Shown here one piece after another: positions 1 to 14,688 of a stretch of 49,197 bases of DNA. The stretch is from Thermoflexales bacterium. Its GTDB lineage: Bacteria; Chloroflexota; Anaerolineae; J036; Brachytrichaceae. The notes under the pieces are model-generated. The model did not search any database. It worked only from the letters and a program-made list of their open reading frames with translations, and was not told where the DNA came from. How positions within the stretch are numbered: the stretch's first letter is position 1; every line of letters begins with the position of its first letter. A program made the translations under genes and the position numbers. The stretch lies in assembly GCA_019694215.1 (NCBI GenBank), contig JAIBCK010000013.1, positions 1 through 49,197 of the forward strand, given 5' to 3'.

Positions 1-1867
1 GATCGAACATCGTCTGCGCATCCAGCGTGGCGTAGCGCCGCTCGACCTCCTCCGTGGCGTGCCGGAGCGCGGCCAGGCCCTCCGGATCGATCTCCGCGCC
101 GGGGGTGTGCAGGCGCTCGGCCATGGCCCGACGCCGACGAAGCAACTGGGAGAGTTCATCCAATTCCGGGCGCGCGGCCGGGCGGCCGGTCTGCGCCGTC
201 AGCCCGTGGGTGAGCCACTGGGCGCGGCGGTGCTCGGAGAAGCCGAGCGCGGCCCCGGCGTCGCCGAGCTCGCCGGCCAACGCGAGGCCACGCCGATACA
301 CCGCCTCGTAGGGCCGCGCGCTGAAGGAGGCCATCACCGGATCGTCGCCGCTGGCGCGAATGACGCGCAACGCGGCGACGGCCTGCTGCAGGTGGAGGAG
401 CGCGCCCGTCTTGTCGCCCGTGCGCGTCGCCAGGGCGCTGCCGACCAGCGCCGCCCGCACGCGGATCTCGGGCAGGTCGGCCGCGACGGCCTCGATCTCG
501 TTCAGCCGGGCGCGCAGCGCGGCCGCACCCGACAGGCCATCGTTGGCCAACGATGCGAGCTCCGCCTCTGCCAGGCGTACCGCAGCCATCGCCCATTGCA
601 GGGGATAGTGTCGCTGTTGCTGCTCTGCTTCCTGAAGCAGGGGCAGAGCACCCGCGTGATCGCCCTCGCGCAGCAGGCGTTCGCCCAGCACGCGCAGGGC
701 CGCCGAGCGGTTGTTGGAGGGTTCGTTCTTCGCAAATGCGTCGAGCGCCCGTTGCGTGAGCGCAGCCACTTCGGCGCGGGGGCAGACGGCGGCGGCGAAG
801 GCCAGGCCAATCATCGTCGGGCCGCGCAGCCCGGCCGGCTCCGCAAGGGCGTGTGCGGCGAGGAAGCGGTCGCGCGCGCCGGGCAGGTCACCCAGCAGGG
901 TCAGCACCGCTCCCTGGCCGATGAGCGCGTGGGCGATCACGTGTGGGTCGCCGGCGCTGCGGCCGACCTGCTCCGCGGTGCGGTAGCGCGCGCCGGCGCC
1001 ATGCAGGTCGCCGCGCGCGTAGAGCGCCAGCCCGATATTGACGTGCTGCTGTCCAACGCCCGCGACATAGCCATGCTCCTCGTAGATCGCCAGCGCCTGC
1101 CCGTGCAGGCGGATGCAGTCCTCCAGATCGCCGAATGCATTGCGAGCGTGCGCGTCCAGGAGGAGGATGTCGCCTTGCAGCAGCGCGCCGCCGCTCTCGG
1201 TGACGGCTGCGCGGGCGCGTTCCAACCAGTGGCGCATGGCGGGGAAGTCGTTGCGGTTACTGGCGGTGACGGCGAGGCTGTAGCACAGATGCGCCTGGCG
1301 GTAGACCAGGCCGAGCGCTTCCGCCAGCGCCAGCCCTTCCTGTGCGACGGTGTCGCACGCGCTGAGCGCATCGAGGATGCGATGGGCCAGCGCCGCTTGC
1401 GCCAGGGCGTATGCGGCCCAACGGCGGTCGCCCTGCTGATACAGCGCCTCCGAGATCGGGCGATAGGCGGCGAGGTAGCCGGCGTGGTCGCCCGCGCGCT
1501 GACGGCGCAGCAGTTCAGCCAGTTCGGCGCGCAACGTATCGAGCTCGGCACCAGCGGCGAAGACCGGGCGGCAGGCGGCCAGGGTTGTGGCGGCCTCGGC
1601 GACGCGGCTTGCGCGGATCTGGGCCAGGGCGAGGTCCAGCGCGCAGCGGGCGCGCTCGAGTGGGTCGGTCAGCGCGGCGTGGGCGCGTTCGAGGGCGGCC
1701 AGCGCGGGGGCGAATGCGTTGAGCCCGGCCAGCGCCGCGCCGCGCTTCCACAGCGTGAGCGGGGTCTCTGGCAAATTGGCCAGGGCCGCTGCCGCTGCGC
1801 GGTAGCGTTCCTGATCGAGCAAGGCGAGTGCGGCGTGTACGTCGGTGTCCGGGTCTGCGGGCGACAT
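1..1867 (-). CDS. TPR-repeat protein, N-terminal ~620 residues (likely TPR-CHAT), C-terminus beyond window
   Basis: Reading the minus strand from ATG at 1867, the frame stays open to the window edge, giving about 622 residues without a stop. The N-terminus begins MSPADPDTDVHAALALLDQE. The product is almost wholly alpha-helical, with degenerate TPR-like units about 34-40 residues apart, for example the segments around GQQHVNIGLALYARGD and ALRVLGERLLREGDHAGALP. Near the edge, the helix containing ALGFSEHRRAQWLTHGL resembles the linker that precedes CHAT (caspase-like) protease domains in TPR-CHAT proteins, and a charged helical stretch follows it. The CHAT domain is therefore inferred, not seen. 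The competing 639-codon frame on the plus strand (59-1978) has an Arg/Gly/Gln-biased composition typical of an antisense shadow. It could instead be a TPR regulator of another kind. Confidence 0.75.
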   Translation of the reverse strand, partial: MSPADPDTDVHAALALLDQERYRAAAAALANLPETPLTLWKRGAALAGLNAFAPALAALERAHAALTDPLERARCALDLALAQIRASRVAEAATTLAACRPVFAAGAELDTLRAELAELLRRQRAGDHAGYLAAYRPISEALYQQGDRRWAAYALAQAALAHRILDALSACDTVAQEGLALAEALGLVYRQAHLCYSLAVTASNRNDFPAMRHWLERARAAVTESGGALLQGDILLLDAHARNAFGDLEDCIRLHGQALAIYEEHGYVAGVGQQHVNIGLALYARGDLHGAGARYRTAEQVGRSAGDPHVIAHALIGQGAVLTLLGDLPGARDRFLAAHALAEPAGLRGPTMIGLAFAAAVCPRAEVAALTQRALDAFAKNEPSNNRSAALRVLGERLLREGDHAGALPLLQEAEQQQRHYPLQWAMAAVRLAEAELASLANDGLSGAAALRARLNEIEAVAADLPEIRVRAALVGSALATRTGDKTGALLHLQQAVAALRVIRASGDDPVMASFSARPYEAVYRRGLALAGELGDAGAALGFSEHRRAQWLTHGLTAQTGRPAARPELDELSQLLRRRRAMAERLHTPGAEIDPEGLAALRHATEEVERRYATLDAQTMFD

Positions 1868-1937
1868 GGGGGTACCGCGAACGGTGGGGCCATTATCGCG
1901 CTGCGCGAGGGGCATGCCGCCTTGCCGCATGCGCTGA

Positions 1938-3143
1938 TCACGGGCGCGACGCGGTCCGTGCCTCGATGTCTTTGCTGATCTCGCCGTGTTGATGAGTGAG
2001 GCCTGCCGTGGCCGCCAGCATCAGCGCCTGGTTGGCGTGTGTTTGCCACCCATCGCGATCCCCCAGCTTCCATAGACAGGTTGCGTAGGCGCGCAAGAAC
2101 TGGACCTTGTGCAATGGGCCGGCGTACGGAAGCTTGTCCAACCCGTCCACCCATCTGTCCAGGACGCGTTTTGCCTTGTCGCTGCGGTTGGCGGCGGTCA
2201 GTGCGCGCGCGAGCGTCCTCGAGATCATCAGCGCGAGGAGTTGGTCCTGCGCAGCGCCGCGGCTGTCACAGATTCTCAGCACCTGATCCGCGAGGCCCTC
2301 GGCCTCACTGATTGCGAAGCGAGGAAGCCGGGCCAGGGAGGACAGGCGATCCCGGAAAACATGGGGCTTCCAAAATTCAGGCGTGTGGCGGAATGCCGGT
2401 TCTGCCTCATGGGAGAGGCTGAGATCGTAGGCGCGCTTCCAGAGGCCGAGGTTGTTCAGGGTCACGACCGTGGATCGGCGGGCATTCATTGACAAGGCTT
2501 CGAGTCTTGGCAGCTCCTCGCGCAGCGCGGATCGATCCGCCAGGTCACACAGCAGCGTGCAGCGATTCGACGCCCACAGTGCATCGGCGTGGCGACCGAG
2601 GACCGAGAAGACATCGTGAAGGATGAGGTGACTCTCGGCGCTGTGCAGCGTGGACGGGTCGCTTCCCATCCAGCGCACCGCTGTCGTGCCGATATCGGCT
2701 GCTGCCCGGTAGGCGCGTGCGCTTTCCGCTGCGTTGGCGTTGTGCGTCGCCCCGCCATGGAGATCGCGCAGCACGGCGACGAGGTGGTCCGGGCTGTCCT
2801 GTGCTTGGCCAGCGATCTCGATCTCACGCCCCTGATGCAGCGCCCAGTAGACGTCGACGTAATGCAGCCAACGTTCGGATTCGTACGCGTCGAGACAGCG
2901 TGTCTCTGACAGGCTGGCCGCCATCGTCATCGCGGTCTTCAGGCTGGGCATCCGGCTGCCGCCGATGATCTGGCTGATGAACTGAGGCGTGATGCCCACA
3001 AGTTGTGCGAAATGCGCCTTGGACGTGCCGTGCCTCAGCGCGCCATCCAGCACCGTTATGACAACGCTTCTGGCCGCATCGATCCGATCGTTTTGCGCTT
3101 CTCCCGCCATCGTCGCTGCGAACTTTAGCAAAGAATTAAACAC
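1938..3143 (-). CDS. HTH (Cro/C1-type) regulator with C-terminal TPR-like helical domain
   Basis: The N-terminal ~75 residues hold a helix-turn-helix of Xre/Cro type (AHFAQLVGITPQFISQIIGG, then a PSLKTAMTMAASL helix). The remaining ~320 residues are alpha-helical with TPR-like spacing (for example LHDVFSVLGRHADALWASNR and LRAYATCLWKLGDRDGWQTH). An HTH plus helical-repeat layout is that of peptide-responsive RRNPP-type regulators (PlcR, Rgg, AimR). That family assignment is by architecture only. Two starts are possible: GTG at 3143 (used here) or ATG at 3110 (MAGEAQNDRID), and neither has a clear Shine-Dalgarno sequence. Upstream lies an operator-like repeat array and a divergent 13-codon mini-ORF with an excellent ribosome-binding site. 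It may control the island to its right. Confidence 0.8.
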   Translation of the reverse strand: MFNSLLKFAATMAGEAQNDRIDAARSVVITVLDGALRHGTSKAHFAQLVGITPQFISQIIGGSRMPSLKTAMTMAASLSETRCLDAYESERWLHYVDVYWALHQGREIEIAGQAQDSPDHLVAVLRDLHGGATHNANAAESARAYRAAADIGTTAVRWMGSDPSTLHSAESHLILHDVFSVLGRHADALWASNRCTLLCDLADRSALREELPRLEALSMNARRSTVVTLNNLGLWKRAYDLSLSHEAEPAFRHTPEFWKPHVFRDRLSSLARLPRFAISEAEGLADQVLRICDSRGAAQDQLLALMISRTLARALTAANRSDKAKRVLDRWVDGLDKLPYAGPLHKVQFLRAYATCLWKLGDRDGWQTHANQALMLAATAGLTHQHGEISKDIEARTASRP

Positions 3144-3172
3144 CTGCCGTTTTGCGATTTGCTACGGTGGTG

Positions 3173-3248
3173 GTGAAGGTGATCTGCGGTCGTGAAAACC
3201 TGACGGACCGCGTTCACCTTCACAACGAGAGCTGCAGCTCCACAACGA
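3173..3248. promoter_or_regulatory. Operator-like repeat array upstream of the HTH regulator
   Basis: The divergent gap holds two nested repeat systems. GTGAAGGTGA (3173-3182) is exactly inverted as TCACCTTCAC (3214-3223). The 8-mer CACAACGA occurs at 3221-3228 and 3241-3248, flanking a perfect 12-bp palindrome GAGCTGCAGCTC (3229-3240). The direct repeats are therefore 20 bp (about two helical turns) apart. This is the layout expected for dimeric HTH-regulator binding, and the nearest candidate is the adjacent HTH-TPR protein. No convincing -35/-10 pair is visible on either strand. Confidence 0.4.
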
Positions 3249-3347
3249 TATCCGCGAAGTGCCCAACGTGTGCGATCGCGCGCGCTGAGCACCCGCGGCG
3301 ATGGCGGCCGCCTGTCGGGTGGCCGCTCCCACAGCGGAGGTGGAGCC

Positions 3348-3389
3348 ATGGGCTATCCTGGAACTGGCGGCGGCGGCGGCGGCGAGTAG
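3348..3389 (+). CDS. Candidate 13-residue Gly-rich peptide mini-ORF
   Basis: ATG at 3348 opens a 13-codon frame, MGYPGTGGGGGGE, ended by TAG. A near-consensus Shine-Dalgarno GGAGG (3336-3340) sits 7 bases upstream, stronger than that of most genes in this window. A strong hairpin follows at 3413-3442. A longer version in the same frame could start at GTG 3270, but it has no ribosome-binding site. The peptide is divergent from the HTH-TPR regulator, the arrangement of regulator/peptide signalling pairs. It could equally be a leader peptide or chance. Its length is too short for any homology argument. Confidence 0.3.
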   Translation: MGYPGTGGGGGGE

Positions 3390-3412
3390 ACCGTCACCTG
3401 CGCCTAACGTTG

Positions 3413-3442
3413 CGGGTCGGCGTGCCTCGGTACGCCGACCCG
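3413..3442. terminator. Hairpin terminator between convergent units
   Basis: An 11-bp perfect stem (CGGGTCGGCGT with ACGCCGACCCG) has an 8-base loop and is followed on the plus strand by a short T-containing run. It lies between the end of the mini-ORF (3389) and the end of the minus-strand gene 3452-3856, so it can serve both strands. Confidence 0.55.
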
Positions 3443-3451
3443 TTTCTGCGT

Positions 3452-3856
3452 CTACGCGCAGGTCAATCCAACGAAATAGGGCTTGAGCGGGCGTTTGCTC
3501 TTGGGATCCAGCACGGCCCGCTCCGGGACCGTCAGCGTGGCGACGCCGTCCGCGTCAAGGGGGGCGGTGAAGGTTCGGTCGGCGATCTTGAGTGACGCGA
3601 CGCAATTGTCCTGGAAGCCCGTCTCGGCGGTGAAGCGCAGGACAAAGACCACCGTCTCCGGCTCGGACAGGCGGCGCCGCATCTCGAATTCGTACCACAC
3701 GTCGCGGTTGTCGAGGACCAGCACATCGATCTGCAGCACATTGACGCGCTCCTCGGTGGCGTCGTTTGCGGCATCCCGCAGGGTTTGTGGATCGCCCCAC
3801 AGCAGCGTCTCGAGGGCGCTCTCGGCCTCGATGGCGTGAATCAAGACACTGGACAC
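3452..3856 (-). CDS. Unknown 134-residue protein downstream of the sigma factor
   Basis: GTG start at 3856, only 6 bp after the sigma-factor gene ends, so the two are probably one operon. The first ~45 residues are helical and acidic (AIEAESALETLLWGDPQTLR). The rest alternates short beta-strand-like segments (VNVLQIDVLVLDNRDVWYEF, TVVFVLRFTAETGFQDNCV, LKIADRTFTAPL) and ends KPYFVGLTCA. There is no signal peptide or membrane segment. I do not recognise a family. By position it could be a partner or antagonist of the sigma factor, or an accessory protein of the caspase/NACHT system. That is inference from neighbourhood alone. Confidence 0.65.
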   Translation of the reverse strand: MSSVLIHAIEAESALETLLWGDPQTLRDAANDATEERVNVLQIDVLVLDNRDVWYEFEMRRRLSEPETVVFVLRFTAETGFQDNCVASLKIADRTFTAPLDADGVATLTVPERAVLDPKSKRPLKPYFVGLTCA

Positions 3857-3862
3857 GGCAAC

Positions 3863-4624
3863 CTAGGCGGATTGCGAGAGGGCCTGGCGGATTCGCGCGC
3901 GGCGATTGTTCACCGCAGCCACCGTCAGGCCGAGCGTGCGGGCGGTCTGCTCCACGGTATAGCCTTCCGCCCACAGGCGGGCCACTTCCTGATTGGTCGG
4001 CCGGAGCTTGAGCAGGCCCGTGCTGTGATCGAGATGCTGCTCCTGGCAATTGCAGCCGGACTTGCCGCACAGGCAGGTGCTGGGCAGCGAGAGGGTGCTC
4101 TCCTCGTTCAGATCCGTCAGGCGGACCGTGACGACGCGCCGGCTGGGGCCGGACTGGCTGAGGCGTCGCGCGCGCAGCCAGACAAACTGGCGCAGCCAAT
4201 CCGTGAGGGGTGTGTCAAACGGGTAGGCGCACAGGCGCCCCTGGCCGATCAGGGCGAAGAATGCCTCACTGGCGATGTCCTCCGCGGCGAGGCCGTTGTC
4301 GGGCACCCAGGCGTAGTGGGGGGCCACCTTGCCGGCGAGGGCCAGCAGGGTCTGATAGAGGCCGGCGTGCTGGTCGGGGTGTTGTGCGCGCAGCCAGGCC
4401 CCATATTCCTCACGCCGGAAGCGGACCACCCGCTCGACGTATTCGGGGAGGTATTCGCGCAGCGGCGTCCCTGACTTGCGTTGGACGCGGGCGACGCGCC
4501 CCCGCCGCAGGTTGCGCCGGATGATGAGTTCGAGGATGGCGCAATAGCCGGGTGGGGTTCCTGCGGGGGTGTGCCTGGCGACGAGATCGTGGATCTGTTG
4601 AGGGGTGAACGCGGTCGTTGTCAT
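3863..4624 (-). CDS. ECF-like RNA polymerase sigma factor with Cys-rich linker
   Basis: The 253-residue product from ATG 4624 has a sigma-2-like helical region (about residues 88-155, including GLAAEDIASEAFFALIGQ and PLTDWLRQFVWLRARRL). It also has a sigma-4-like HTH at residues 205-250 (NQEVARLWAEGYTVEQTART, then AAVNNRRARIRQAL). Between them are four cysteines in ten residues, CLCGKSGCNC (184-193), a likely metal- or redox-sensing linker. A 100-bp N-terminal extension is open, but the start at 4624 places the protein cleanly in the divergent gap. It is transcribed away from the caspase gene, with 233 bp between them. It probably directs RNA polymerase to island promoters; the target is not visible. 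Similarity to a plain sigma-4 transcription factor cannot be excluded. Confidence 0.75.
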   Translation of the reverse strand: MTTTAFTPQQIHDLVARHTPAGTPPGYCAILELIIRRNLRRGRVARVQRKSGTPLREYLPEYVERVVRFRREEYGAWLRAQHPDQHAGLYQTLLALAGKVAPHYAWVPDNGLAAEDIASEAFFALIGQGRLCAYPFDTPLTDWLRQFVWLRARRLSQSGPSRRVVTVRLTDLNEESTLSLPSTCLCGKSGCNCQEQHLDHSTGLLKLRPTNQEVARLWAEGYTVEQTARTLGLTVAAVNNRRARIRQALSQSA

Positions 4625-4750
4625 GGTTGTGCGAACGCCTCGGACTGCATACTGTAGCTGCTTCTTGAAAATTGCGCAAGTTGCTCGCAGCGAGCATGGT
4701 CGTTGCAAAACCCTCAGGCGCATTGGCCATTACGTCTCTTGAATTGGAAA

Positions 4751-4820
4751 GTGCCCGCCGCATCCGCGATTCGGACGGGCACTGCGTGCCAGCCATCGCG
4801 AGTCCCATAACGGGTACAAT
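4751..4820. promoter_or_regulatory. Divergent promoter region of sigma factor / caspase operon
   Basis: An imperfect hairpin (GTGCCCG 4751-4757 pairing with CGGGCAC 4776-4782, plus an inner CCG/CGG step with one bulged A) precedes a -10-like TACAAT at 4815-4820. With a start about 7 bases later, the caspase mRNA would have a leader of about 30 bases containing GGGAG (4844-4848), nine bases before the ATG at 4858. No consensus -35 element is present, which fits an alternative sigma factor or an activator. Confidence 0.45.
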
Positions 4821-4857
4821 CTAGCCCGGCCATTCGCTATCACGGGAGACGACGGAT

Positions 4858-6408
4858 ATGGGACTTCCTTTCACCAATGACGAGTACCGCTGGATTCTGG
4901 ATTGTCTCTCAAACTTGCAGGAGTTGCTTACGCCGGAAGCGCAGCGCGCCTTCATCGGCAATGCCTTTAACGATAGTCCGCGACGGATCAGAATCGCGAC
5001 CGGCCTTCGCTACAGCAGGCGCCCGCGCGATTTCGTTGTTGACGCGCTGCGCTACTTTGGCGAAGAGGCACAGGAGGACATCCCTGGCCGCAAGACGGTC
5101 GGGGTGTTTCTGCGTGAGGCGCTCGATTGCCTTGGCGAGGGGCCCGACGCCACGACATTGCGCGACCTGCTGATCCGGTATTACCCGGGTGCATTGATCG
5201 CCCACGCGCCGGCCGAACAGCCGGCCGAGCCCCCTGCGGTACCCGCGTTGAATGCCGATGCGCAACTGGTGTCCCTGGCCCATTATTTTGCCGCGATGGA
5301 ACAGGCGCATCGGGTCGAAGTCAATTTCCTCCTCGACCAAATCGCCGAGACCAGTGCGGTTGCGGAGGAGGTCGTTGCGTCCGCGCGCGACCTGCAAACC
5401 TGGGCGGGACAAATGCTGGCTGAGTCGGCAAACCTCAATGCCGAGCTCCGAAGCCAGCTCGAGTCCCTCGCAGACAACTCGGCCAACGCGAGCAATTACT
5501 TGACTGCGTCAATCCCGATTATTCCGGGGTTCCTGAGCTACAACGTCGAAGTCGGTTCGCAACATGGACTCGACCTGGGCAAGCTTTGGGAGCGCATCAA
5601 GAAGCGCTTTCGAAAGGGTGACGGCGCTGAAAAGGGATCTCACTCGGGACCCTCCAGAGCGGTTCTCAACCGTGGCCGGGCGCGCGGGGTGTTTGCGGGC
5701 GTAGGCCGATACGCCGACGACAGCTTTTCCCCGCTGCAGTACCCTGCATCCGACATGATCGCGCTGGCGAACCTCCTCGCGGGAAGGTACACGGCAACGA
5801 ACGTCCTGACCGACGAGCAAGGCGTTTCCCCGACAAACGCCAATATCCGCAGTGCGCTGATCGCGCAGGCAGCCGCGGCGGAGGCAGGTGACTTGCTCTT
5901 GTTTGCCTTCAGCGGACACGGCATACTGCAGGATGGCAAGAGCTATCTGATCCCGCGAGACGCCGCGTACATCACGGTCAGCGGCACCGCAATCCCCCTG
6001 GACGACGTGCGCCAGATCATGCTTGAATCGGCTGCGCGGGCGAAGGTGATCCTCCTCGATGCCTGCCATGCCGGCGCGCAGATCGGCAAGGGACCTGAGC
6101 CGATGACCGACGACTTCATCCGGCACGTCTTCGAGCAGGCCCGCGGCATCTGCGTGCTCTCATCCAGCACGCAGAGCCAGACTTCGTGGGAGTCAAGTGA
6201 CTTCGGCCACGGTGTCTATATCCGCTACCTGCTCGAGGCGTTGATCGGACGGGCGGACCGCGACGGCAAGGGATTCGTCACGGTGACCGACGCGCATCGC
6301 TACGCCTCGGGGATGGTCAAACGCTGGGCCGCCGATCACCACAAGATCCAACAGCCAACCCTGGATTGCCAGATGGACGGCGACATTGTTCTGCATCACT
6401 ACGCGTGA
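4858..6408 (+). CDS. Caspase-fold (C14) protease with N-terminal EAD-like domain
   Basis: 516 residues. Residues ~265-516 form a caspase/metacaspase domain, with the catalytic His in FAFSGHG (His354) and the catalytic Cys in LLDACHAG (Cys403). The substrate-loop segment SSSTQSQTSWE follows. Residues ~19-108 form an all-helical effector-associated (EAD/death-like) domain, visibly similar to the N-terminus of the TIR-NACHT protein at 11413-14688. A coiled-coil-like linker (~140-215) and a short hydrophobic stretch (SIPIIPGFLSY) separate the two domains. It is expected to cleave cellular or partner proteins when activated by proximity, as in caspase-NLR conflict systems. The NACHT gene begins 11 bp downstream, so the two form an operon. 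RBS GGGAG at 4844-4848. Confidence 0.9.
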   Translation: MGLPFTNDEYRWILDCLSNLQELLTPEAQRAFIGNAFNDSPRRIRIATGLRYSRRPRDFVVDALRYFGEEAQEDIPGRKTVGVFLREALDCLGEGPDATTLRDLLIRYYPGALIAHAPAEQPAEPPAVPALNADAQLVSLAHYFAAMEQAHRVEVNFLLDQIAETSAVAEEVVASARDLQTWAGQMLAESANLNAELRSQLESLADNSANASNYLTASIPIIPGFLSYNVEVGSQHGLDLGKLWERIKKRFRKGDGAEKGSHSGPSRAVLNRGRARGVFAGVGRYADDSFSPLQYPASDMIALANLLAGRYTATNVLTDEQGVSPTNANIRSALIAQAAAAEAGDLLLFAFSGHGILQDGKSYLIPRDAAYITVSGTAIPLDDVRQIMLESAARAKVILLDACHAGAQIGKGPEPMTDDFIRHVFEQARGICVLSSSTQSQTSWESSDFGHGVYIRYLLEALIGRADRDGKGFVTVTDAHRYASGMVKRWAADHHKIQQPTLDCQMDGDIVLHHYA

Positions 6409-6419: not shown

Positions 6420-9341
6420 ATGCCCGCCAAGTTGCCGCCCGACCTAAAGCGCGACCTCAAGGCCGCGTTGCTGCTCGACCTGGACGTGAACCGAAGCGAC
6501 GTCAAGCATCAGGTCAGTGAACGCACGCGATACCGGATTGGTTGGGGAGACAGTGTCAGCGCGGCGGAGCTGGCCGATAAGCTCTTCGATCAGGCCATGT
6601 TGTCGGACTGGCTGGCCATCCTGACGGCTTGCCGCGAGCGCGATGTCATGGCTGCCCATGTCGCCACGTTCGATGGTCTGATCACCCGGGTGAAGGCGCT
6701 GGCGTCCACACCGGCCGATCTGAGCGAGGATAGGTTTGCGGCCTATCATGAGCGCCGGATCAGGCACTGGCGCGACACGGTACAGATCGACACCCGCTTT
6801 GTGCGCCTCACCCTCGTTCAGCAACAAGCCGGCGCGGCCGGACCCGGCGGGATGGGCGGCGGAGCGCCGGATGTGTATACCGACTTGTGGGCGCTTGTTG
6901 AAAACACCGGTGCCGGTTGCCTCATGATCCTGGGCGAGCCGGGCGCGGGGAAGAGCACGCTACTTCGGCGCCTTCAGTTTGACATGGCCAGCGCCGCCCG
7001 AAATGGCGAGCCCGTTCCGGTGACCTTCTTCGTGCCGCTGTACTTGTATCCACGCGGCGAGCGCGATCCACGGGCCTGGCTCGCCCGCGAATGGGAGCGC
7101 CAGTACAGCGACCTCGACGCCTTTGAAACGCTGGTCCAGGCGGGAAAACTGTGGCTGCTTCTGGACGGGCTGAATGAACTGAAGCGCGAGGATGCCCGCG
7201 ATCTGGCGGCGCGCAACGAACATTGGCGCGACATGCTGCCGGGCCTGGTCGAACACGGCAACCGCGTCATCGTCACCCGGCGCCGGTCGGACGAGGAATT
7301 GACCTGGGACGGCCCCCAGGTCAAGGTGCAGCGCGTGGCGGTTAGCCCGATGAGCGACGACGTGATCCAGGAATTCCTGGTCGCCTATCTTGGCGACGTC
7401 GCCCGGCCCGTGTGGAAGGCGATTCGGAAAGACCCCAAGCTGCTCGATCTTTTTCGAACCCCCTATTTCCTGCGCATGCTGACGGATCTGGGCGAGGTGA
7501 AGGCCGACGGCAAGGTGCCGTCCGGGCGGGCCGACTTGTTTACCCGGGGTCTGCGCCATGCGTTCCAGCGCGAGGCCATCGACAAGGCCATGCCGTTGCT
7601 GCGGGACCCCGGCATCTTGACGCTAGCGGAGCGTGAGCGGCTGCGACACAACAACGAACGTCTTGCATGGCAGGGATTTGACCTGCCCCACAGCCCGGTG
7701 GTCGCGGCAATGAAGACGCTTGCCTTTCGCATGCGCCGGGCCGGCCGTCGCGTCAGCGTCGAAACCGAGCAGGCCCGCGCGTGGATTGCCCATCCGCGGG
7801 CCGACGATCTGCTGGCCGCCGCCGCGGACCTCGGCGTCCTGAAGCGTCCCGATCTCGTCGGGGCGGCGGCCCCGGGCGACCAGGTGACGTTCTCGCACGA
7901 GTTGATGCAGGAATACTTTGCGGCGCGGCAGCTTGCCGAACCCGGGCAAATCGGCTCAATCATCGATGCCTTGCGCGTTCCATGGAAGGCGCACAACATC
8001 TTCAAACGCTGGCGCGACAACCGCCGGCGCAGGGTGGGCGAGGCGGGTACGCGGGTGGAGGAACCGCCTTTGCCAACGACCAACTGGGAGGAGATCGCCC
8101 CGATGGCGGCCGAAATGCTCCCCCCGGAACAGGCGGAAGCATTCATCGAACGGATTGCGGCCGTCAACCTGGCGCTGGCCGGACGGAGTGCGGCCGCGCC
8201 GGGGGTTCGCCTCAGCGAACAAGGCAGACAGTCGCTGCAAGATCGCCTTCTCCGCCGGATGCAGTCTGAAAGGGCGAATCTGCGCTCACGTGTGGCGGTC
8301 GGAATCGCCCTCGGCCAACTTGGCGATCCTCGCTTTGAACGAGGTGAAGGGCCATATGGTCCCTACTTGCTGCCGCCACGGATCATCGTGCCGAGCGGCG
8401 TCTATACGATTGGCGACAACGCGAGCGACCAGACCGACGAGCGGCCCGCCCATTCCGTTACTCTGCAAGCATTCGAGCTTGCCAAATTCCCGGTGACCAA
8501 TGCCGAGTATCGGCTGTTCATCGACGCCGGCGGATATACCGAGGCCTTTGATTGGTGTTGGGAGACCGAGGCGGCCAAGGCCTGGCGGGCGGCGGGGACA
8601 GGATCCGGAAGCGCGCGAGCGTTGAGCCTGCGGCACTACCGCCGTCGCTTTGCGCAAAAGGCCTACGAACCCAGCGAAGGCAACATCCAGACCCTCATGG
8701 GGTGGGGATATTCGCGTGAAGACGCGGAGTCGATGTTTTTCAGAGACGATGCTCAGTTTGAGGCATACCTTTCAACGGCCATTCGCGACGAGGTGTCGAC
8801 TGAACCCCTGTTCTGGCACGACCCGCGCTTCAGCGCGCCCAATCAGCCAGTCGTGGGCGTGACCTGGCATGAGGCCCGCGCCTATTGCGCGTGGTTGAGC
8901 GCTCAGGATGGAAAGCGCCGGTTCCGCTTGCCAACTGAAGCGGAGCGTGAGGCGGCGGCCCGCGGCCTGGCCGGTCGGCGCTATGCCTATGGCAGGCGAT
9001 TTGACCCGACCCGGGCCGTTGTGTGGACCAGCGGGCTCGACGCCCCAGTGCCGGTCGGTCTTCTGCCGAGGGGCGACACCCCCAAAGGGTCGGGGGGGGG
9101 GATATCCGATCTGGCCGGAAACGTCGTGGATTGGACCAGTTCGCTGTACACAAAGGATTACTCGGCGTCCGGAATCGCTGTAGAGGATCCGAACTCCGAT
9201 GCGTCCCGGGCGCTGCGCGGCGGGTCGTGGCTCAACCTTCCGGACATCGCGCGCGCGGCGTATCGCGACGGGGACTTTCCGAACGACCGCAACGACGGCA
9301 TCGGTTTTCGGCTTGTGTGCGCCCCTGTTCACCCCCTCTGA
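6420..9341 (+). CDS. EAD-NACHT-FGE protein, DGR target 1 (caspase-linked NLR-like sensor)
   Basis: 973 residues. The N-terminal ~90 residues are helical and EAD1-like (AELADKLFDQAMLSDWLAIL). A NACHT/STAND NTPase follows, with Walker A GEPGAGKST (172-180) and Walker B LWLLLDGLNE (244-253), then helical NACHT-associated regions to about 640. Residues ~655-973 form an FGE-sulfatase (formylglycine-generating-enzyme) domain of C-type-lectin fold, with the signatures VVGVTWHEARAYCAWLS, RLPTEAERE and DLAGNVVDW. This is the fold usually diversified by retroelements. The C-terminus from residue ~932 is VR1 (9210-9324). A G10 run at 9092-9101 lies inside the FGE domain. It follows the caspase gene by 11 bp with RBS GAGGTGAT. 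I infer that it senses a ligand through the lectin fold and oligomerises to activate the caspase. FGE enzymatic activity is not implied. Confidence 0.92.
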   Translation: MPAKLPPDLKRDLKAALLLDLDVNRSDVKHQVSERTRYRIGWGDSVSAAELADKLFDQAMLSDWLAILTACRERDVMAAHVATFDGLITRVKALASTPADLSEDRFAAYHERRIRHWRDTVQIDTRFVRLTLVQQQAGAAGPGGMGGGAPDVYTDLWALVENTGAGCLMILGEPGAGKSTLLRRLQFDMASAARNGEPVPVTFFVPLYLYPRGERDPRAWLAREWERQYSDLDAFETLVQAGKLWLLLDGLNELKREDARDLAARNEHWRDMLPGLVEHGNRVIVTRRRSDEELTWDGPQVKVQRVAVSPMSDDVIQEFLVAYLGDVARPVWKAIRKDPKLLDLFRTPYFLRMLTDLGEVKADGKVPSGRADLFTRGLRHAFQREAIDKAMPLLRDPGILTLAERERLRHNNERLAWQGFDLPHSPVVAAMKTLAFRMRRAGRRVSVETEQARAWIAHPRADDLLAAAADLGVLKRPDLVGAAAPGDQVTFSHELMQEYFAARQLAEPGQIGSIIDALRVPWKAHNIFKRWRDNRRRRVGEAGTRVEEPPLPTTNWEEIAPMAAEMLPPEQAEAFIERIAAVNLALAGRSAAAPGVRLSEQGRQSLQDRLLRRMQSERANLRSRVAVGIALGQLGDPRFERGEGPYGPYLLPPRIIVPSGVYTIGDNASDQTDERPAHSVTLQAFELAKFPVTNAEYRLFIDAGGYTEAFDWCWETEAAKAWRAAGTGSGSARALSLRHYRRRFAQKAYEPSEGNIQTLMGWGYSREDAESMFFRDDAQFEAYLSTAIRDEVSTEPLFWHDPRFSAPNQPVVGVTWHEARAYCAWLSAQDGKRRFRLPTEAEREAAARGLAGRRYAYGRRFDPTRAVVWTSGLDAPVPVGLLPRGDTPKGSGGGISDLAGNVVDWTSSLYTKDYSASGIAVEDPNSDASRALRGGSWLNLPDIARAAYRDGDFPNDRNDGIGFRLVCAPVHPL
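9092..9101 (+). repeat. G10 homopolymer inside DGR target 1
   Basis: Ten consecutive G residues encode part of KGSGGGISDL in the FGE domain, 108 bp before VR1. As written the tract keeps the frame. Loss or gain of one base would remove the VR-encoded C-terminus. A matching C9 tract lies in target 2. An assembly error in the run length is possible. Confidence 0.7.
9210..9324 (+). repeat. DGR variable repeat VR1 with IMH
   Basis: This 115-bp segment at the 3' end of target 1 aligns without gaps to TR (offset 288). Fourteen of the fifteen differences fall on TR adenines (for example AAC to CTC, AAT to CTT, AAC to GAC, AAT to TTT, AAC to GGC). The remaining one, a G/C difference at 9218, lies in the 5' boundary. 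The last ~25 bases (from ATCGGTTTTCGG) are identical to TR and form the initiation-of-mutagenic-homing (IMH) region. Confidence 0.97.
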
Positions 9342-9393
9342 GCTCTGTTCCTTGGCTCTCTGTACCTCTGGGGTTCTGGCGCTGGGAGGGGGT

Positions 9394-9417
9394 GCAGGGG
9401 GAGGCCTCTCCCCCTGC
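9394..9417 (+). promoter_or_regulatory. Post-VR1 cruciform/hairpin (retrohoming element)
   Basis: A perfect 10-bp stem GCAGGGGGAG / CTCCCCCTGC has a 4-base loop GCCT and lies 69 bp after VR1. The same hairpin with the same spacing follows VR2 (11337-11360) and is absent after TR. In Bordetella phage BPP-1, a stem-loop just downstream of the VR stimulates retrohoming, so this is the likely counterpart. It may also terminate the caspase-NACHT mRNA. Confidence 0.8.
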
Positions 9418-9451
9418 CGAAAAACGATCACGGATTCTGTGGATCTCGGGG

Positions 9452-9457
9452 TATGAT
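9452..9457 (+). promoter_or_regulatory. Candidate -10 element for TR RNA
   Basis: TATGAT lies 40 bp before TR on the coding strand of TR and RT. Initiation about 7 bases later would give a short leader before TR. No -35 match is visible. The hexamer resembles the -10 boxes seen before leaderless genes elsewhere in this window. Confidence 0.35.
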
Positions 9458-9497
9458 CGGGCCCGTTGGGCGCATGCCCATCAGGCCGTTCGGGAGG

Positions 9498-9612
9498 GCG
9501 CTGCGGGGCGGGTCGTGGAACAACAATCCAGACATCGCGCGCGCGGCGTATCGCAACAGGAACAATCCGAACAACCGCAACAACAACATCGGTTTTCGGC
9601 TTGTGTGCGCCC
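9498..9612 (+). repeat. DGR template repeat (TR)
   Basis: This 115-bp non-coding template holds eleven AAY codons and one AGG in the VR reading frame (it would read [17 protein letters not shown], then an Asn-rich stretch). That is the codon design that lets adenine mutagenesis reach many residues without creating stops. Its IMH* end (to GCGCCC at 9612) matches both VRs, then diverges at once (A at 9613 where both VRs have C). TR lies between target 1 and avd, on the same strand as RT and 615 bp before it. It carries no downstream hairpin, which is consistent with one-way transfer from TR to VR. Confidence 0.97.
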
Positions 9613-9860
9613 ATGTTCTTTCGCCCCTTCTTCTGGGCCGGCGCTTCCACGGCCGGTCGGCGCGGTGCCGCGCAACTCGCGCTGCCGTGTTCCGGAAATG
9701 CCCGCTCATGGCGGTTCAGTGCCGCTGTCATCGGGCCGAGGCGAAGGAGGAAGAACAGCGCCGAACGTGTCTGGTCCGCGCGCAGGAACGGGGCGGCACA
9801 CAGGGACGCCGCCCGCGCCGGGCGCATACGAAAACCAGGGCGTAGCCTGGCGCATGCCCG

Positions 9861-10208
9861 CTACGCCCGTCCCTGGGTGTGCTTCAACCAGCCGCCCAGC
9901 AATCGGCCGATCTCGGCGACCATCGCGCTGACGTGAGCATACTGGCCGGTGTTCAGCCAGTCCCATTGACGGGCCAGCCTCAGATACAGCCGGAGTTTGT
10001 TCAGGTGGGCGTCGGCCGCCTGCAAGTGGGTGAGCCGAACCGGTCCCTTGCGGGCGTTTGCCTCGTAGAGAGCCTCGCTGAGATCAAGCGCGGCCCCTTG
10101 CAGCCGTTGGGTCACCGCAAAACGCTGGGACTTTGGAAAACGGTCACAATGCGGAATGAGCCAATTCAACAGATCGTAGGCTCGGGTGAAGATGACCATA
10201 TCGTCCAT
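9861..10208 (-). CDS. avd: DGR accessory variability determinant (Avd-like four-helix protein)
   Basis: 115 residues from ATG 10208 (MDDMVIFTRAYDLLNWLIPH). Residues such as FPKSQRFAVTQRLQ, LDLSEALYEAN, ADAHLNKLRLYLRLA and MVAEIGRLLGGWLKH are the hallmarks of the Avd/23S-IVP four-helix bundle. In other DGRs, Avd is a basic pentameric barrel that binds the RT and the TR RNA. It is required for mutagenic cDNA synthesis. A -10-like TACATT (10220-10215) leaves only 6 bases before the ATG, so the mRNA should be leaderless. This argues for the 10208 start over an upstream in-frame ATG at 10292 that would overlap RT. The gene is oriented opposite to TR and RT and lies between them, which is not the usual avd-TR-RT order. 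Confidence 0.92.
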   Translation of the reverse strand: MDDMVIFTRAYDLLNWLIPHCDRFPKSQRFAVTQRLQGAALDLSEALYEANARKGPVRLTHLQAADAHLNKLRLYLRLARQWDWLNTGQYAHVSAMVAEIGRLLGGWLKHTQGRA

Positions 10209-10214
10209 GCCGTG

Positions 10215-10220
10215 AATGTA
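10215..10220 (-). promoter_or_regulatory. Leaderless -10 box of avd
   Basis: TACATT on the minus strand, with a 6-base spacer to the avd ATG at 10208. It overlaps the 19-bp gap between the divergent avd and RT start codons. Confidence 0.5.
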
Positions 10221-10227
10221 ACAGCCC

Positions 10228-11292
10228 ATGTGGGACCTGCTGACCTCCTGGGACAACCTTTGGCTTGCGTTCGGCAAGGCCGCCCGCGGCAAACGGGGCG
10301 GATTGTCCGTGGCCGCCTTTGAGCACCAACTCGCCGATCATCTGCTGTCTCTGCAGGCCGAGCTGCGAGACGGAACCTATCGGCTCGGCGCGTATCGCCA
10401 CTTCGTCATCCATGAACCCAAGCGCCGCAGGATCAGCGCCGCACCGTTTCGAGACCGGGTCGTGCACCATGCGCTATGCAACCTGATCGAGCCCGTCTTT
10501 GACGCGCGCTTCATCGACCACAGCTACGCCAATCGGGTTGGCAAGGGCACCCACCGAGCCGTCGACCAACTTCAGATCTGGGCGAAGCGCTATCGGTATG
10601 CGTTGCGGATGGATGTCGTGCAGCACTTCCCTTCACTCGATCACGGCGTGCTGCGGGCCGAGATTGGGCGGGTTGTCTCAGATGAACGGACACTCGCATT
10701 GGTGGATCAGATTCTGGCCAGCGGCGCGGGTGTGCTGGCGGGCGAATACACCCCGGTGTATTTCGCTGGTGACGATCTATTCGCGGCCAACCGCCAGCGC
10801 GGCCTTCCCATCGGTAATCTGACCTCCCAGTTCTGGTCAAACGTCTACATGAACGATCTGGACCAGTTTGTCACCCGCGAATTGGGATGCGCCGCCTACT
10901 TGCGTTACGTCGACGACTTCTGCCTGTTCAGCGACAGCAAGCGCGCGCTGTGGGCCTGGCACACACGCATCATTGGGCGTCTCGCCGGCCTGCGCCTGAC
11001 CGCCCACGAGCGCGAAGCGCAAGTGATGCCGGCGACGCAGGGAATCCCGTGGCTGGGCTTCGTGGTGTATCCAGATCGGCGGCTGCTCAAGCGCCGCAAC
11101 GCGGTTGCCTTCACCCGCCGGTTGCGCAACGCCCTCGATCTGTATCAATTGGGCCGCATTTCGTTCGCCGAATTGGATGCCAGCATCCAGGGCTGGATCA
11201 ACCACGTCCGCTATGCTGACACATGGGGACTGCGGGAGCATATTCTCGAAAGCAATCCCATTGGCCGCCGGTCTTCCGTGACGACTCCATGA
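10228..11292 (+). CDS. DGR-type reverse transcriptase
   Basis: 354 residues, a typical DGR RT length. The N-terminus ([19 protein letters not shown]) and the [20 protein letters not shown] motif are retron/DGR-like. RT motif 4 is [13 protein letters not shown] (residues 193-205), with the DGR-diagnostic IGNLTSQ in place of the QG-x3-SP of group II introns. The catalytic YVDD is at residues 227-230. The thumb segment [17 protein letters not shown] and a C-terminal helix pair follow. The enzyme copies TR RNA into cDNA with adenine-specific errors. Its ATG is 19 bp from the divergent avd ATG with no clear RBS, so it may be translated from a transcript that starts before TR. It ends 120 bp before the convergent target 2. 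Confidence 0.96.
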
Positions 11293-11336
11293 TCCGTGCC
11301 ATCCGCAGTCTCCGGATCCTCCATGATCGTTTTTCG

Positions 11337-11360
11337 GCAGGGGGAGAGGCCTCCCCCTGC
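11337..11360 (-). promoter_or_regulatory. Post-VR2 cruciform/hairpin (retrohoming element)
   Basis: The same perfect 10-bp stem and 4-base loop as after VR1, here 69 bp beyond VR2 on its strand. About 105 bp on from the VR, including the hairpin and the flanking CGAAAAACGATCA, is nearly identical between the two targets. Lying between convergent RT and target 2, it may also act as a bidirectional terminator. Confidence 0.8.
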
Positions 11361-11412
11361 ACCCCCTCCCAGAGCCAGAACCCCAGAGGTACAGAGCACT
11401 GAGAAACAGAGC

Positions 11413-14400
11413 TCAGAGGGGGTGAACAGGGGCGCACACAAGCCGAAAACCGATGCCGCCGTCGAAGCGGTCGTTCGGATCGTTCCTGAAGCGATACGCC
11501 GCGCGCGCGATGCCTGGACTGTCGTTCCACGACCCGCCCCGCAGCGGCCGGGACGCATCACCTAAAAGCGTTGTGCGGTCCGGATTCTCGTACTCGTTCA
11601 GACACCACTCCCAAACGTTGCCGGTCAGATCCAGCACGGCCTCAGGCCGGGGGGGGGCCCCATTCGGATACATCCCGACTGCGCTGGTCAAGCCAATGCT
11701 CTCGTCTATGTTTCCCTTGGCTGCATCGTACTCTCCCGGATAGGCATACGCACGCCCCTTTGTGCCGCGCGCCGCACGCTCCCACTCGTATTCGGTCGGC
11801 AACCGCACGTCGTATCCCAGCCGCGCTGACAGCCATCTGCAATACGCAACCGCGTCATACCAGCTTACACATTCGCGCGGATGATTCCAATACGGGAAGG
11901 CTTGATTGCCTGGTTGCGCGCGGTGCTTCTCGTCGGCACTCAGGCCCTCCCACCAGCGCGGGTTCGACCAGCCCTCTGCGGCGTCCAAAAAGGCCTGGAA
12001 TTGGGCATACGTCACCGGATATCGGGCGATGTGAAACGATTCGACCCTGCGCGTTCCCTTCTGGTAGATGAAGTCGCCGCCTTGGATAGGCACCCAGTCA
12101 ATCTCGGGCGTGGGCACATGGTCGCGATCGGCTCCCACGATGGCGCGCACGCCCGGCCGGTTGTCGAGCGTTTCGCCCGTGGTGAGCCTCAGCACGCCCA
12201 GCGCCCGGCCGACGGCCGCGCGAGCCCGCGGAGCCGGGTCGCGCTCGAGGTCGGTCAGGCGCGGCAGCCAGCCCGCGCGCAGCTCAAGCAGCAGGGAGTC
12301 GGGGACATCGGCGCCGCTGTCAAGGATGCATCGGGCCGCCACTTCCGGGTTGGCCTCGGCCAGCCAACGCAGCACCGGCGCACAGTTGTCGGCCTGCATG
12401 CCGGTCAACAAGACCGCCGCTTCCTCCCAGCCACTGCGCTCCCACCACCGATCCGGCGGCCACAGTTCGGATGCGCGCAGCCGGCCGGCCTCGATCTCGG
12501 CCAGCATCTTGCGGGCGGCGAAGTATTCCTGCAGCAGCTGATGGGTAAAACGGACCTGATCGCCAAGGGTGATCAGACTCGCGCTGGCGGCCAGAGACAA
12601 CGCGGTCTCGTCCAAATGGCGGCGTGCCTCGCTCAACGCCATCGCAGTCGTGGCGGTCTTGCCGTTGTCCTGATCCCGATCTGTCCGGGCAGCCCTGGCG
12701 CTGCGCTGCATCGCATAGGCCAGGCCCGCGAGGCGGTCCAGGAGTCTGGCTGCGTGCTCGGGCAGCGCAACGGTGCCCGAGCCTTTGTCCCTCTCGGCCA
12801 GGCGTTCGCGCAACAACAACACCTCGATGAACTCGGCAAACAGGCTAGCCCGATTGGCGGGCAGGCGCTCGTTCCTGTTTCTGCGATAGACCTGGACCAG
12901 CATCGATAGCATGTACGGGTTTTCGGCCAGCTTGATCAGCGCGGCGGGCGCCCGAATGTGCTTGCGCCAGGCGTCATCATCGACGCGCAGAGTTGAGTGA
13001 AAGACATCGGGATCGTCGCGTGGGATGTCGGTGGCCGTAAAGAACAGATCGAAGCTGGCACCTGCTGCGCGCCATTTCTCCCAGACCGGTTTCAGGTTTC
13101 CGGCGAGCTCCCAGAAGAACGTTTCGCCTTCCTCGGACCCAAGATACCTTTGCGCGAACTCCAGAATGCGCCCGGCATCCAGGGGCCGGATGGTCACCCG
13201 ATCCAGGCGCAGGTCCTGGCCTTCATAATCCTGCTTGCGGCAGGTCACGAGGGTCATCAGGTCCCGTTGCGGCGCGGCCTGCACGAAGGTCCGCAGCAGG
13301 CCGACCTTCCGTTTGCGCTGGGCGACTGGGATTTCGTTCAGCCCATCGAGCAGGAGAACGGCCTTGCCCTCCGTCAACAGCGCATCCAGATGCGCGCCCA
13401 GCCCGCCCATCTGGCTGGCGATGAGTTTGGCCAACGTTTGCTCAGCGTCGGTCCACTTGCCCAGCTTTACCAGTAGCGGAATCGGCGCGCGCGGATCGCG
13501 CCTGGCGGTGTCGACAAGCCGCCGCGCCACCGTCCACAGGACGGTGCTCTTGCCCGCGCCCGGTTCGCCCAGCACGGCCGCCCTGCGAATGGCCATCAAC
13601 TCCTCGGCCGCATTGGTGAACACGCGCGGCGTTGCGTTCATATCCGCCGCCGTGCGCCAGGCCAGATGCTCAAACTCCTGACGTTGGACGACGCTCTCGA
13701 GATCCGCAATCGGGCGCGCAACGGTCTGTGTGCTCCCCGCCAGCGCGACGTACTTGTCGGTATTGCGCAGTTCTTCGAACAACAGCCGATCCAGGTATTC
13801 CAATTCCAGGACCCGCCGCGAATCGAGCATTTCACGGGTGGCCTTGCTGGCCACGGGACCCGGAGCTGGTGGGTGGGGCAAAGCGGCCACGACGTTTGCC
13901 GGCCCTGTGTCAGCGGTATCCCCGTACCACGTGATGTACTGGTATCCGTGCAGGCCAAAGAAATCGACTCCGCCAGCGCAGTCTTCGAGCAGCACCGGCA
14001 CAATCAGTTTGCCCTTGATCTTCGCCCAGACAACTTCGTCCCGCACCCAGGGGCTGCGCATCGTGTCGCTGCTGCACAGGACCACGACGGCATAGGCATT
14101 GTTGACGGCCTCGCCGATGGCGCCCAACCAGTCCTCACCACCATTGATGTTTAAGGTGTCAATCCAGACGGTGTGTCCGGCGGCCCGGAGGGCGGCCACG
14201 AGCCTCTTGGCGGGGGTTGCGTCGGCATGCAGGTAGCTGATGAAGACACTCGGCAGCCGCTCGTCGCGCGGGGTTTCCGCGCTCTGCACAGGCGCCTGGT
14301 GGATCGGCGCAACCGCGTCCTGTGGCGGGGCGGTGGCGCGTGGTCGTGCCTCTTGCGCGCAAAGGCCATTGCTCAGCGTTATTAGCTCGCCGATCTTAGC

Positions 14401-14688
14401 ATCGGCTTCGGCGCCAAGCCGATCTCGGGCAACCTCCAGCAGCGCCGCAAGAGGGTGCTGGCCGCTGGCAAAGCACGACATCGCAAGAAGCTTCCCGACG
14501 CAATCGACGGCAAAAAGACCGGCGCGCGCGTCCACGTCGATGTCGCGCACCAGACTCAGGCCACCGTTGGTCGTGAATGCTTCGGTAAGGAGTGAGCGGC
14601 GTTCAGCCAGCGTGGTGCTCAACGGCGCAATCACATGCTTGACGCGGGTGACGAAATTTGGAGGAAGCCCGGCGACGTTGGGCGGCAT
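11413..14688 (-). CDS. EAD-TIR-NACHT-FGE protein, DGR target 2
   Basis: 1091 residues. An EAD-like helical domain (~15-107), similar to that of the caspase, is followed by a Pro-rich linker. A TIR domain (~146-262) comes next: SVFISYLHADATPAKRL, WIDTLNINGGEDW, VVVLCSSDTMRSPWVRDE and KLIVPVLLED. The NACHT NTPase has Walker A GEPGAGKST (374-382) and Walker B AVLLLDGLNE (443-452), and helical repeats run to ~860. The FGE/C-type-lectin domain (863-1091) has YPVTYAQFQAFLD, LPTEYEWERAARG and LTGNVWEW, ending in VR2. TIR domains of this type often degrade NAD+. An acidic residue is present in GGEDW, but I cannot prove catalysis. A C9 tract (coding strand) lies in the FGE domain. A -10-like TACACT lies 8 bases before the ATG, so the mRNA should be leaderless. 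Confidence 0.93.
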   Translation of the reverse strand: MPPNVAGLPPNFVTRVKHVIAPLSTTLAERRSLLTEAFTTNGGLSLVRDIDVDARAGLFAVDCVGKLLAMSCFASGQHPLAALLEVARDRLGAEADAKIGELITLSNGLCAQEARPRATAPPQDAVAPIHQAPVQSAETPRDERLPSVFISYLHADATPAKRLVAALRAAGHTVWIDTLNINGGEDWLGAIGEAVNNAYAVVVLCSSDTMRSPWVRDEVVWAKIKGKLIVPVLLEDCAGGVDFFGLHGYQYITWYGDTADTGPANVVAALPHPPAPGPVASKATREMLDSRRVLELEYLDRLLFEELRNTDKYVALAGSTQTVARPIADLESVVQRQEFEHLAWRTAADMNATPRVFTNAAEELMAIRRAAVLGEPGAGKSTVLWTVARRLVDTARRDPRAPIPLLVKLGKWTDAEQTLAKLIASQMGGLGAHLDALLTEGKAVLLLDGLNEIPVAQRKRKVGLLRTFVQAAPQRDLMTLVTCRKQDYEGQDLRLDRVTIRPLDAGRILEFAQRYLGSEEGETFFWELAGNLKPVWEKWRAAGASFDLFFTATDIPRDDPDVFHSTLRVDDDAWRKHIRAPAALIKLAENPYMLSMLVQVYRRNRNERLPANRASLFAEFIEVLLLRERLAERDKGSGTVALPEHAARLLDRLAGLAYAMQRSARAARTDRDQDNGKTATTAMALSEARRHLDETALSLAASASLITLGDQVRFTHQLLQEYFAARKMLAEIEAGRLRASELWPPDRWWERSGWEEAAVLLTGMQADNCAPVLRWLAEANPEVAARCILDSGADVPDSLLLELRAGWLPRLTDLERDPAPRARAAVGRALGVLRLTTGETLDNRPGVRAIVGADRDHVPTPEIDWVPIQGGDFIYQKGTRRVESFHIARYPVTYAQFQAFLDAAEGWSNPRWWEGLSADEKHRAQPGNQAFPYWNHPRECVSWYDAVAYCRWLSARLGYDVRLPTEYEWERAARGTKGRAYAYPGEYDAAKGNIDESIGLTSAVGMYPNGAPPRPEAVLDLTGNVWEWCLNEYENPDRTTLLGDASRPLRGGSWNDSPGIARAAYRFRNDPNDRFDGGIGFRLVCAPVHPL
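11430..11546 (-). repeat. DGR variable repeat VR2 with IMH
   Basis: Against TR, the 117-bp segment shows 12 base substitutions, all at TR adenines (AAC to GAC, AAT to AGT, GAC to GGC, AAC to TTC, AAT to GAT and others). It also has one in-frame extra codon in the AAC run (TTC GAC GGC GGC against AAC AAC AAC). No substitution is seen at a TR G, C or T. The encoded tip reads RFRNDPNDRFDGGIGFRLVC. The IMH end is identical to that of VR1. Confidence 0.97.
11649..11657 (-). repeat. C9 (coding strand) homopolymer inside DGR target 2
   Basis: Nine consecutive C on the coding strand encode part of NGAPPRPEA, 102 bp before VR2 and just before the LTGNVWEW motif. The position is equivalent to the G10 tract in target 1. 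A one-base slip would truncate the protein before the VR. Confidence 0.65.

Follow-up and report, generated by a model that had tools for sequence, protein, structure and literature searches.

RRNPP systems (NprR-NprX, PlcR-PapR, Rgg-SHP, PrgX, and Rap-Phr) pair a receptor with a small peptide gene, and in the parts of the literature considered here their descriptions come from Firmicutes and the elements of Firmicutes (PMC10075063; PMC4873490; PMC12700828). A large survey of these systems covered Firmicutes and virus genomes, as far as the portions of that paper used here go (PMC10075063). Leaderless peptides beside RopB-type receptors are likewise known in Firmicutes, according to part of one account (PMC10518010). 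Two other bodies of work, each drawn on in part, concern EAD8-STAND-FGE proteins as targets of diversity-generating retroelements (DGRs; PMC10907252) and conflict systems with linked peptide-processing genes (PMC7159879). Among the open-access literature matches listed, none describes an RRNPP-type system in Chloroflexota in its title or the opening of its abstract. The locus considered here lies in a stretch of 49,197 nt (hereafter the window; contig JAIBCK010000013.1 of assembly GCA_019694215.1) from a Thermoflexales bacterium, a member of Chloroflexota. It combines a putative HTH-TPR regulator, a predicted divergent transcript that contains a 13-codon mini-ORF, and a neighboring TPR gene that apparently extends into a CHAT domain.

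The regulator gene (1938..3110, minus strand) encodes a 390-aa protein that was assigned as HTH-TPR on the basis of Pfam, AlphaFold2, and full-length homologs. ATG 3110 is the more likely start than GTG 3143 because the latter falls inside or at the edge of a conserved box (see below); in the alignment, each homolog begins at its own start codon in the corresponding position, a choice that is partly the analyst's. The Pfam match to HTH_3 is just under the cut-off (E 1.4e-4), that to TPR_19 is weak, and no NCBIfam family matched at E up to 0.1. PrgX_C_TPR was matched by one of 11 family members (E 0.099; Pfam scan, among the 25 families shown out of 28). A PDB profile search returned 21 sequences at E up to 1, consisting of HTH and general helical-repeat chains, none of which is named as an RRNPP receptor. 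The AlphaFold2 model of the window regulator, built from three sequences, is all helical (mean pLDDT 81), and a second model, of a relative's regulator, is helical throughout (pLDDT 83). Both have the N-terminal HTH and C-terminal TPR superhelix that characterize RRNPP receptors. In structure comparisons, the window model matched NprR with its peptide NprX at Z 21.9 (rmsd 3.8, 255 aligned), and the relative's model matched NprR at Z 22.1 (rmsd 3.2, 251 aligned). Rap, which lacks an HTH, matched the window model at Z about 21, and NprR and Rap were the best bacterial structural matches. Comparisons of the models with PlcR (3u3w) gave Z 17.8 (rmsd 17.2, 263 aligned) and Z 19.2 (rmsd 3.1, 212 aligned). 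However, eukaryotic TPR proteins tie with NprR in the matching of the window model, so this structural similarity does not single out RRNPP proteins. The resemblance to peptide-sensing RRNPP proteins that the first-pass annotation had proposed thus extends to the architecture and the best bacterial folds, but not to a match specific to that group.

Homologs of the regulator are sparse in Chloroflexota. They were found in eight of 60 relatives, 14 of 396 genomes of the class, and six of 400 genomes of the phylum. All three counts include the genome of the window itself, and each sample is part of a larger group. One of the six phylum homologs (G664) was dropped because only its HTH part matched (model positions 29-98). 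Two extra loci (L047 and L048) came from a named collection, in which they are titled as Chloroflexi and Chloroflexota MAGs. The expectation of a system outside Firmicutes is therefore borne out by homologs in Chloroflexota, both from the searches of class and phylum genomes and by the titles of these two loci; the difference from the described range of RRNPP systems is a matter of range, not mechanism. No close ortholog of the window regulator was found, the best match being 36% identical. No homolog was found in the one same-genus genome searched (67% complete), in the genome contig collection searched with the window protein, in viral contigs searched with the window and L030 proteins, or in plasmid records searched with the L030 protein. 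The window region is not repeated elsewhere in its own genome.

Sequences upstream of the regulator were compared among 16 loci, including the window, with just 173 nt available for L005; the G023 and G519 loci were left out since contig ends cut them before the upstream region. These loci are not all independent, as seven belong to a single family and L025 is close to L036. Several have features of their own. The L036 regulator is split between two frames. In L035 (665-2494) and L036 (8077-9834), a second, larger HTH-TPR protein lies behind the regulator (609 and 585 aa by ORF, the one in L036 examined with Pfam). In L050, the regulator is accompanied by a SufB-type protein with Hint and LAGLIDADG matches (1121-4888, minus strand), which looks like a SufB carrying an intein.

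The upstream regions share a 21-bp box, which in the window reads TGTTTAATTCTTTGCTAAAGT (3122..3142, minus strand) and is proposed as the operator. It aligns ungapped in 15 loci, with the consensus TGTTTAATT-N4-GC-N2-atTT. Because a GTTTAAT, GTTTAAA, or CTTTAAT core was the basis for selecting rows (L051 was left out), the outer columns alone are unbiased; among these, +11 is G in all 15 rows, +12 is C in 11, +17 is T in 13, and +18 is T in 14. In 11 of the 16 loci, the sequence TGTTTAAT lies no more than 70 bases upstream of where the regulator starts, and 11 of its 12 copies in 345,634 fetched positions are upstream of regulators. Searching 16 genomes with the pattern TGTTTAATTNNNNGNNNNNNT gave 16 matches, nine of them at these regulators, compared with five matches for the reversed pattern. 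The window's 3.4 Mb genome has a single match, at the regulator, and G224 has four beyond its regulator. TANNNT stands 18-25 nt from the box at seven of the nine regulator sites, compared with one of the seven other matches. The seven extra matches sit within stop-to-stop frames of >150 codons, as do six of the nine regulator sites, and this frame test was discarded because, unlike the -10 test, it does not tell the two groups apart. By these counts, the box is nearly private to the regulator locus, which ties the regulator to its own gene and the divergent transcript. A further similar stretch, CATGA...GTTTAC, lies beyond the box in L035, L036, L025, and L028.

On the opposite strand, TANNNT lies 20-22 nt after TTAAAC in 13 of the 16 loci. 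Among 1000 dinucleotide shuffles, the mean was 0.63 loci and the maximum five, even with the best spacing class left free; the test was devised after the sequences had been inspected, and no other 3-nt spacing class exceeded five loci in the 1000 shuffles. The window's hexamer, TACGGT (3163..3168, plus strand; 21 nt after TTAAAC), is a weak match to TATAAT. The exceptions are L029, L030, and L051. In the f43 pair L029 and L030, which have the best candidate peptides, TANNNT is absent at the tested spacings and -10-like hexamers are found at 16 nt. Because this spacing is kept in so many loci relative to the shuffles, a two-way promoter with a predicted divergent transcript is conserved among the regulator loci. 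The box in the window overlaps the regulator's own -10 (TTTAAT), and binding of the HTH-TPR protein to 3122-3142 would cover this -10 and amount to autorepression. Relative to the predicted start of the divergent transcript, the box also lies about 33-53 bases upstream, an activator position at a promoter that lacks a proper -35, where the regulator may help RNA polymerase.

The predicted divergent transcript would start near 3175 and end at about 3445 (about 270 nt). Its 5' leader is predicted by RNA folding to form a hairpin (3173..3223, plus strand) from an exact 10-bp inverted repeat (GTGAAGGTGA at 3173-3182 and TCACCTTCAC at 3214-3223). Also inside the predicted leader, direct repeats of CACAACGA at 3221 and 3241 flank the perfect 12-bp palindrome GAGCTGCAGCTC at 3229-3240 (3221..3248 in all, plus strand). 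When 3111-3451 was shuffled 500 times by dinucleotides, 2.6% of the shuffles contained an exact inverted repeat of at least 10 bp with a loop of 3-60, and none contained a 12-bp palindrome flanked by 8-bp direct repeats. These repeats had been pointed out in the first-pass annotation and are present as described, but the operator array that they were taken to form at 3170-3250 is rejected, as they sit downstream of the conserved divergent -10 and inside the predicted transcript; the box shared among the loci stands at 3122-3142. As RNA, 3170-3230 folds at -30.8 kcal/mol (z -4.9), and the predicted transcript (3174-3445) has a z of -5.4 relative to shuffles.

Within this transcript, the 13-codon mini-ORF MGYPGTGGGGGGE (3348..3389, plus strand, stop included) follows a 7-nt Shine-Dalgarno match, GGAGGTG (3336..3342, plus strand); as had been noted, GGAGG at 3336-3340 stands 7 nt before ATG 3348. 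ATG ORFs of at least 8 aa with Shine-Dalgarno matches of 7, 6, and 5 nt occurred in 0.35%, 0.8%, and 5%, respectively, of 2000 shuffles of 3175-3445. The Gly run of the mini-ORF is a (GGC)6 repeat, the sole one in the window. No export signal was found in the mini-ORF, and no signal-like hydrophobic stretch in the forward frames of 3175-3412 (maximum 1.29). Other candidates in this region were set aside, namely a 147-aa TTG ORF (3152-3595) that begins upstream of the predicted transcript start and reads through the stem described below, an ATG at 3301 without a 4-nt Shine-Dalgarno match whose frame also reads through the stem, and GTG 3270, a 39-aa version of the mini-ORF with no Shine-Dalgarno listed.

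The mini-ORF has no Gly-rich counterpart in the divergent stretch of any of the 15 relatives (600 nt each, 173 nt for L005), and a conserved 13-mer signal is therefore not supported. With regulators at most 36% identical, however, this comparison falls short of the strict refutation by orthologs that the first-pass annotation had set. In addition, its predicted leader is structured and 173 nt long, compared with 29-35 nt in L029, L030, L031, and L033. Similar to the LCP-RopB systems, the window would have a very short peptide without an export leader beside a TPR regulator. However, LCP comes from Firmicutes (PMC10518010, in the part considered) as a short leaderless ORF conserved with its receptor, whereas the window 13-mer is Gly-rich and stands alone among the loci compared, despite its Shine-Dalgarno sequence. 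It is plausible but unproven that this 13-mer serves as the signal in a peptide-sensing pair; a leaderless peptide gene and an incidental ORF in a structured RNA are both plausible. If the latter, the divergent transcript in the window may be a structured regulatory RNA in which the mini-ORF is incidental or a translated lid and carries no signal. The folding of the transcript and of its leader hairpin, the lack of conservation of the 13-mer, and the fact that 13 codons are too few for coding evidence all agree with this. Nevertheless, a Shine-Dalgarno match as strong as the one observed is rare among shuffles and some relatives carry translated small ORFs in the same slot, such that we consider a regulatory RNA unlikely, if not strikingly so.

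A terminator-like stem followed by TTTCTG lies downstream of the mini-ORF (3413..3442, plus strand). Its arms (3413-3423 and 3432-3442) form the longest inverted repeat (11 bp), which was seen in 0.6% of shuffles, and the window's post-stop hairpin has a z of -3.5. However, a terminator scan that required five T in eight did not list this stem, the tail of which is TTTCTGCG. The strong terminator previously proposed after the mini-ORF is thus retained as a stem, but with a weak T run. Moreover, the stem begins 9 nt past the stop of a minus-strand ORF (3452-3856) and could for this reason serve either side. This raises an alternative in which the regulator is an ordinary autoregulated HTH-TPR gene, the mini-ORF arose by chance, and the stem ends ORF 3452-3856. 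Such an arrangement would fit the position of the stem, the weak T run, and the 5% of shuffles that contain an ORF with a 5-nt Shine-Dalgarno match. It is improbable in our view, given that the divergent -10 is kept in 13 of the 16 loci, that the T-bearing side of the stem is on the mini-ORF strand, and that an ORF plus hairpin is found in the same slot of relatives. Post-stop hairpins beat shuffles in six of seven cases (z -2.0 to -5.7), with L029 as the exception.

Small ORFs occupy the divergent slot in six of the 15 relatives, or seven if the doubtful L036 is counted, and eight or nine have no clear small ORF there. Those of L028, L029, L030, L031, and L033 have strong Shine-Dalgarno sequences, and that of L049 is less certain. 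In four relatives the products are of exported type, with one hydrophobic segment and a terminal Cys...Cys, and two or three more have other small ORFs. In L029 and L030, ORFs of 58 and 59 aa with an 8-nt Shine-Dalgarno match begin 29 nt after the predicted start; their products have a hydrophobic N-terminus followed by a spacer rich in Pro and Thr, and they end in CHGIGC and CHGGGC. Over 58 codons, the two ORFs differ at 19 first, 12 second, and 32 third positions, and this clustering at third positions suggests that the pair is translated. The L028 ORF, from another family, has 63 (or 84) aa and ends in CGCPNGC, and that of L049, from another class of the phylum, has 77 aa, or 144 if read from a start with a better Shine-Dalgarno, and ends in CPGTPMRC. 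The ORFs of L031 and L033 (79 and 62 aa) have 8-nt Shine-Dalgarno matches and lack Cys...Cys ends. The doubtful 70-aa ORF of L036, with AAGGAGG 3 nt before its ATG, reads by eye like the tail of a surface protein, and a 12-codon ATG ORF without Shine-Dalgarno in L034 was left out of the count. The slot in L019 holds a 243-aa enzyme-like protein that looks by eye like a hydrolase. From these sequences, the small divergent peptide of some relatives is apparently exported.

The small protein may instead be an output, such as a small membrane or antimicrobial peptide or a CHAT substrate, with the TPR groove sensing something else. Hydrophobic segments and Cys-rich ends would suit such a product, as would the adjacent CHAT genes, the enzyme-like protein of L019, and the single, weak similarity to the lactococcin 972 model seen for the L028 peptide (E 0.088; 13.1 bits, where the cut-off is 32.1). 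Yet a rare box found mostly at the regulator/divergent promoter suits a receptor-signal pair at least as well, and the layout of leader, spacer, and C-terminal peptide is propeptide-like. We regard an output role as doubtful, and a peptide-sensing pair as the best reading for the regulator family. The peptide-signaling pair anticipated for the window thus gains from the conserved divergent transcript and the propeptide-like ORFs of relatives, but its 13-mer has no Gly-rich counterpart in the relatives compared.

The gene behind the regulator (2..1930), likewise on the minus strand, is truncated by the end of the contig and encodes a TPR part (TPR_MalT, E 1.7e-7, below the cut-off). The last 313 bases of contig C133 from the same assembly are 97.8% identical to positions 1-313 of the window (seven mismatches), and on C133 the TPR frame is followed by a CHAT domain (E 1.2e-35) without interruption. 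The window gene therefore appears to continue into CHAT on C133; the overlap may reflect strain variation in a single gene or a second, near-identical TPR-CHAT copy in the MAG. Among relatives, the peptide genes of L028, L029, and L030 converge on genes for TPR-CHAT proteases of 1056-1081 aa (CHAT E 9.5e-59 to 2.2e-62), and the L028 and L030 proteins are homologous over their full length (34%). The window gene was not assigned to the same CHAT family because its TPR part has weak similarity to these two proteins (BLASTP E 0.031 and 0.003, respectively). The idea of a pair that guards a suicide system accordingly finds an apparent TPR-CHAT neighbor in the window, but not a conserved 13-mer to act as the signal.

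On the other side of the regulator, the window contains a putative defense island, which includes a caspase with a weak EAD8 match, NACHT-FGE, a reverse transcriptase, and TIR-EAD8-NACHT-FGE. These components are shared with NACHT/EAD/CHAT conflict systems that carry DGRs, whereas an HTH-TPR regulator with a divergent peptide gene is not described in the parts of those accounts considered (PMC10907252; PMC7159879). The reverse transcriptase gene (10228-11292) lies between two NACHT-FGE genes, and both NACHT-FGE C-termini share GGSW...ARAAYR...GFRLVCAP, of which an Asn-rich copy is found in ORF 9453-9845. From this reading of the ORF list, 6420-14688 looks like a DGR with template and variable repeats. 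In L028, a NACHT STAND gene (9965-12001) adjoins the cluster of TPR-CHAT, peptide, and regulator genes and echoes the NACHT genes of the window. Closer to the regulator, 3452-4723 (minus strand) holds a 134-aa ORF that matched no family at E up to 0.1 and a gene with a weak sigma-70 region 4 match (below the cut-off). The latter was matched in two of 28 family genomes, one being the window's own and the other at 27%, and possibly encodes an accessory sigma factor with a partner.

Compared with RRNPP systems, the loci are alike in the HTH and TPR superhelix, in the candidate small peptide gene beside the regulator at some loci, and in the layout of L028-L030 and perhaps L049, which resembles that of exported propeptides. 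They are unlike in the Chloroflexota host, in having no clear sequence match to RRNPP families, in the C-terminal Cys...Cys peptides and CHAT neighbors, and in that peptide import and binding are putative here. We do not claim RRNPP membership; the predicted fold and the layout fit. Our tentative interpretation, to which we give somewhat less than an even chance, is a dedicated self-regulating two-gene switch. The divergent transcript would encode a small peptide, which is exported and propeptide-like in some relatives and probably a leaderless 13-mer here. The TPR groove of the regulator would sense this product or a fragment of it, and so determine how far the regulator is expressed together with the adjacent TPR-(CHAT) gene, with which it may be co-transcribed.

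A broader version of this interpretation, which we put forward as speculative and rather unlikely, is that Chloroflexota harbor a peptide-signaling lineage in which HTH-TPR receptors bind one 21-bp box, drive a divergent gene for an exported peptide whose C-terminal, possibly cyclic Cys...Cys part is the signal, and gate TPR-CHAT proteases. In the window, the signal would have shrunk to a leaderless Gly-rich 13-mer coupled to the caspase/NACHT/DGR island. If true, an RRNPP parts list would exist in Chloroflexota, beyond the Firmicutes range catalogued in the portions of the survey considered here (PMC10075063). Furthermore, population-dependent control of a bacterial caspase-like protease would become directly testable, for which the loci supply exact test pieces in the form of one 21-bp box and several concrete candidate peptides.
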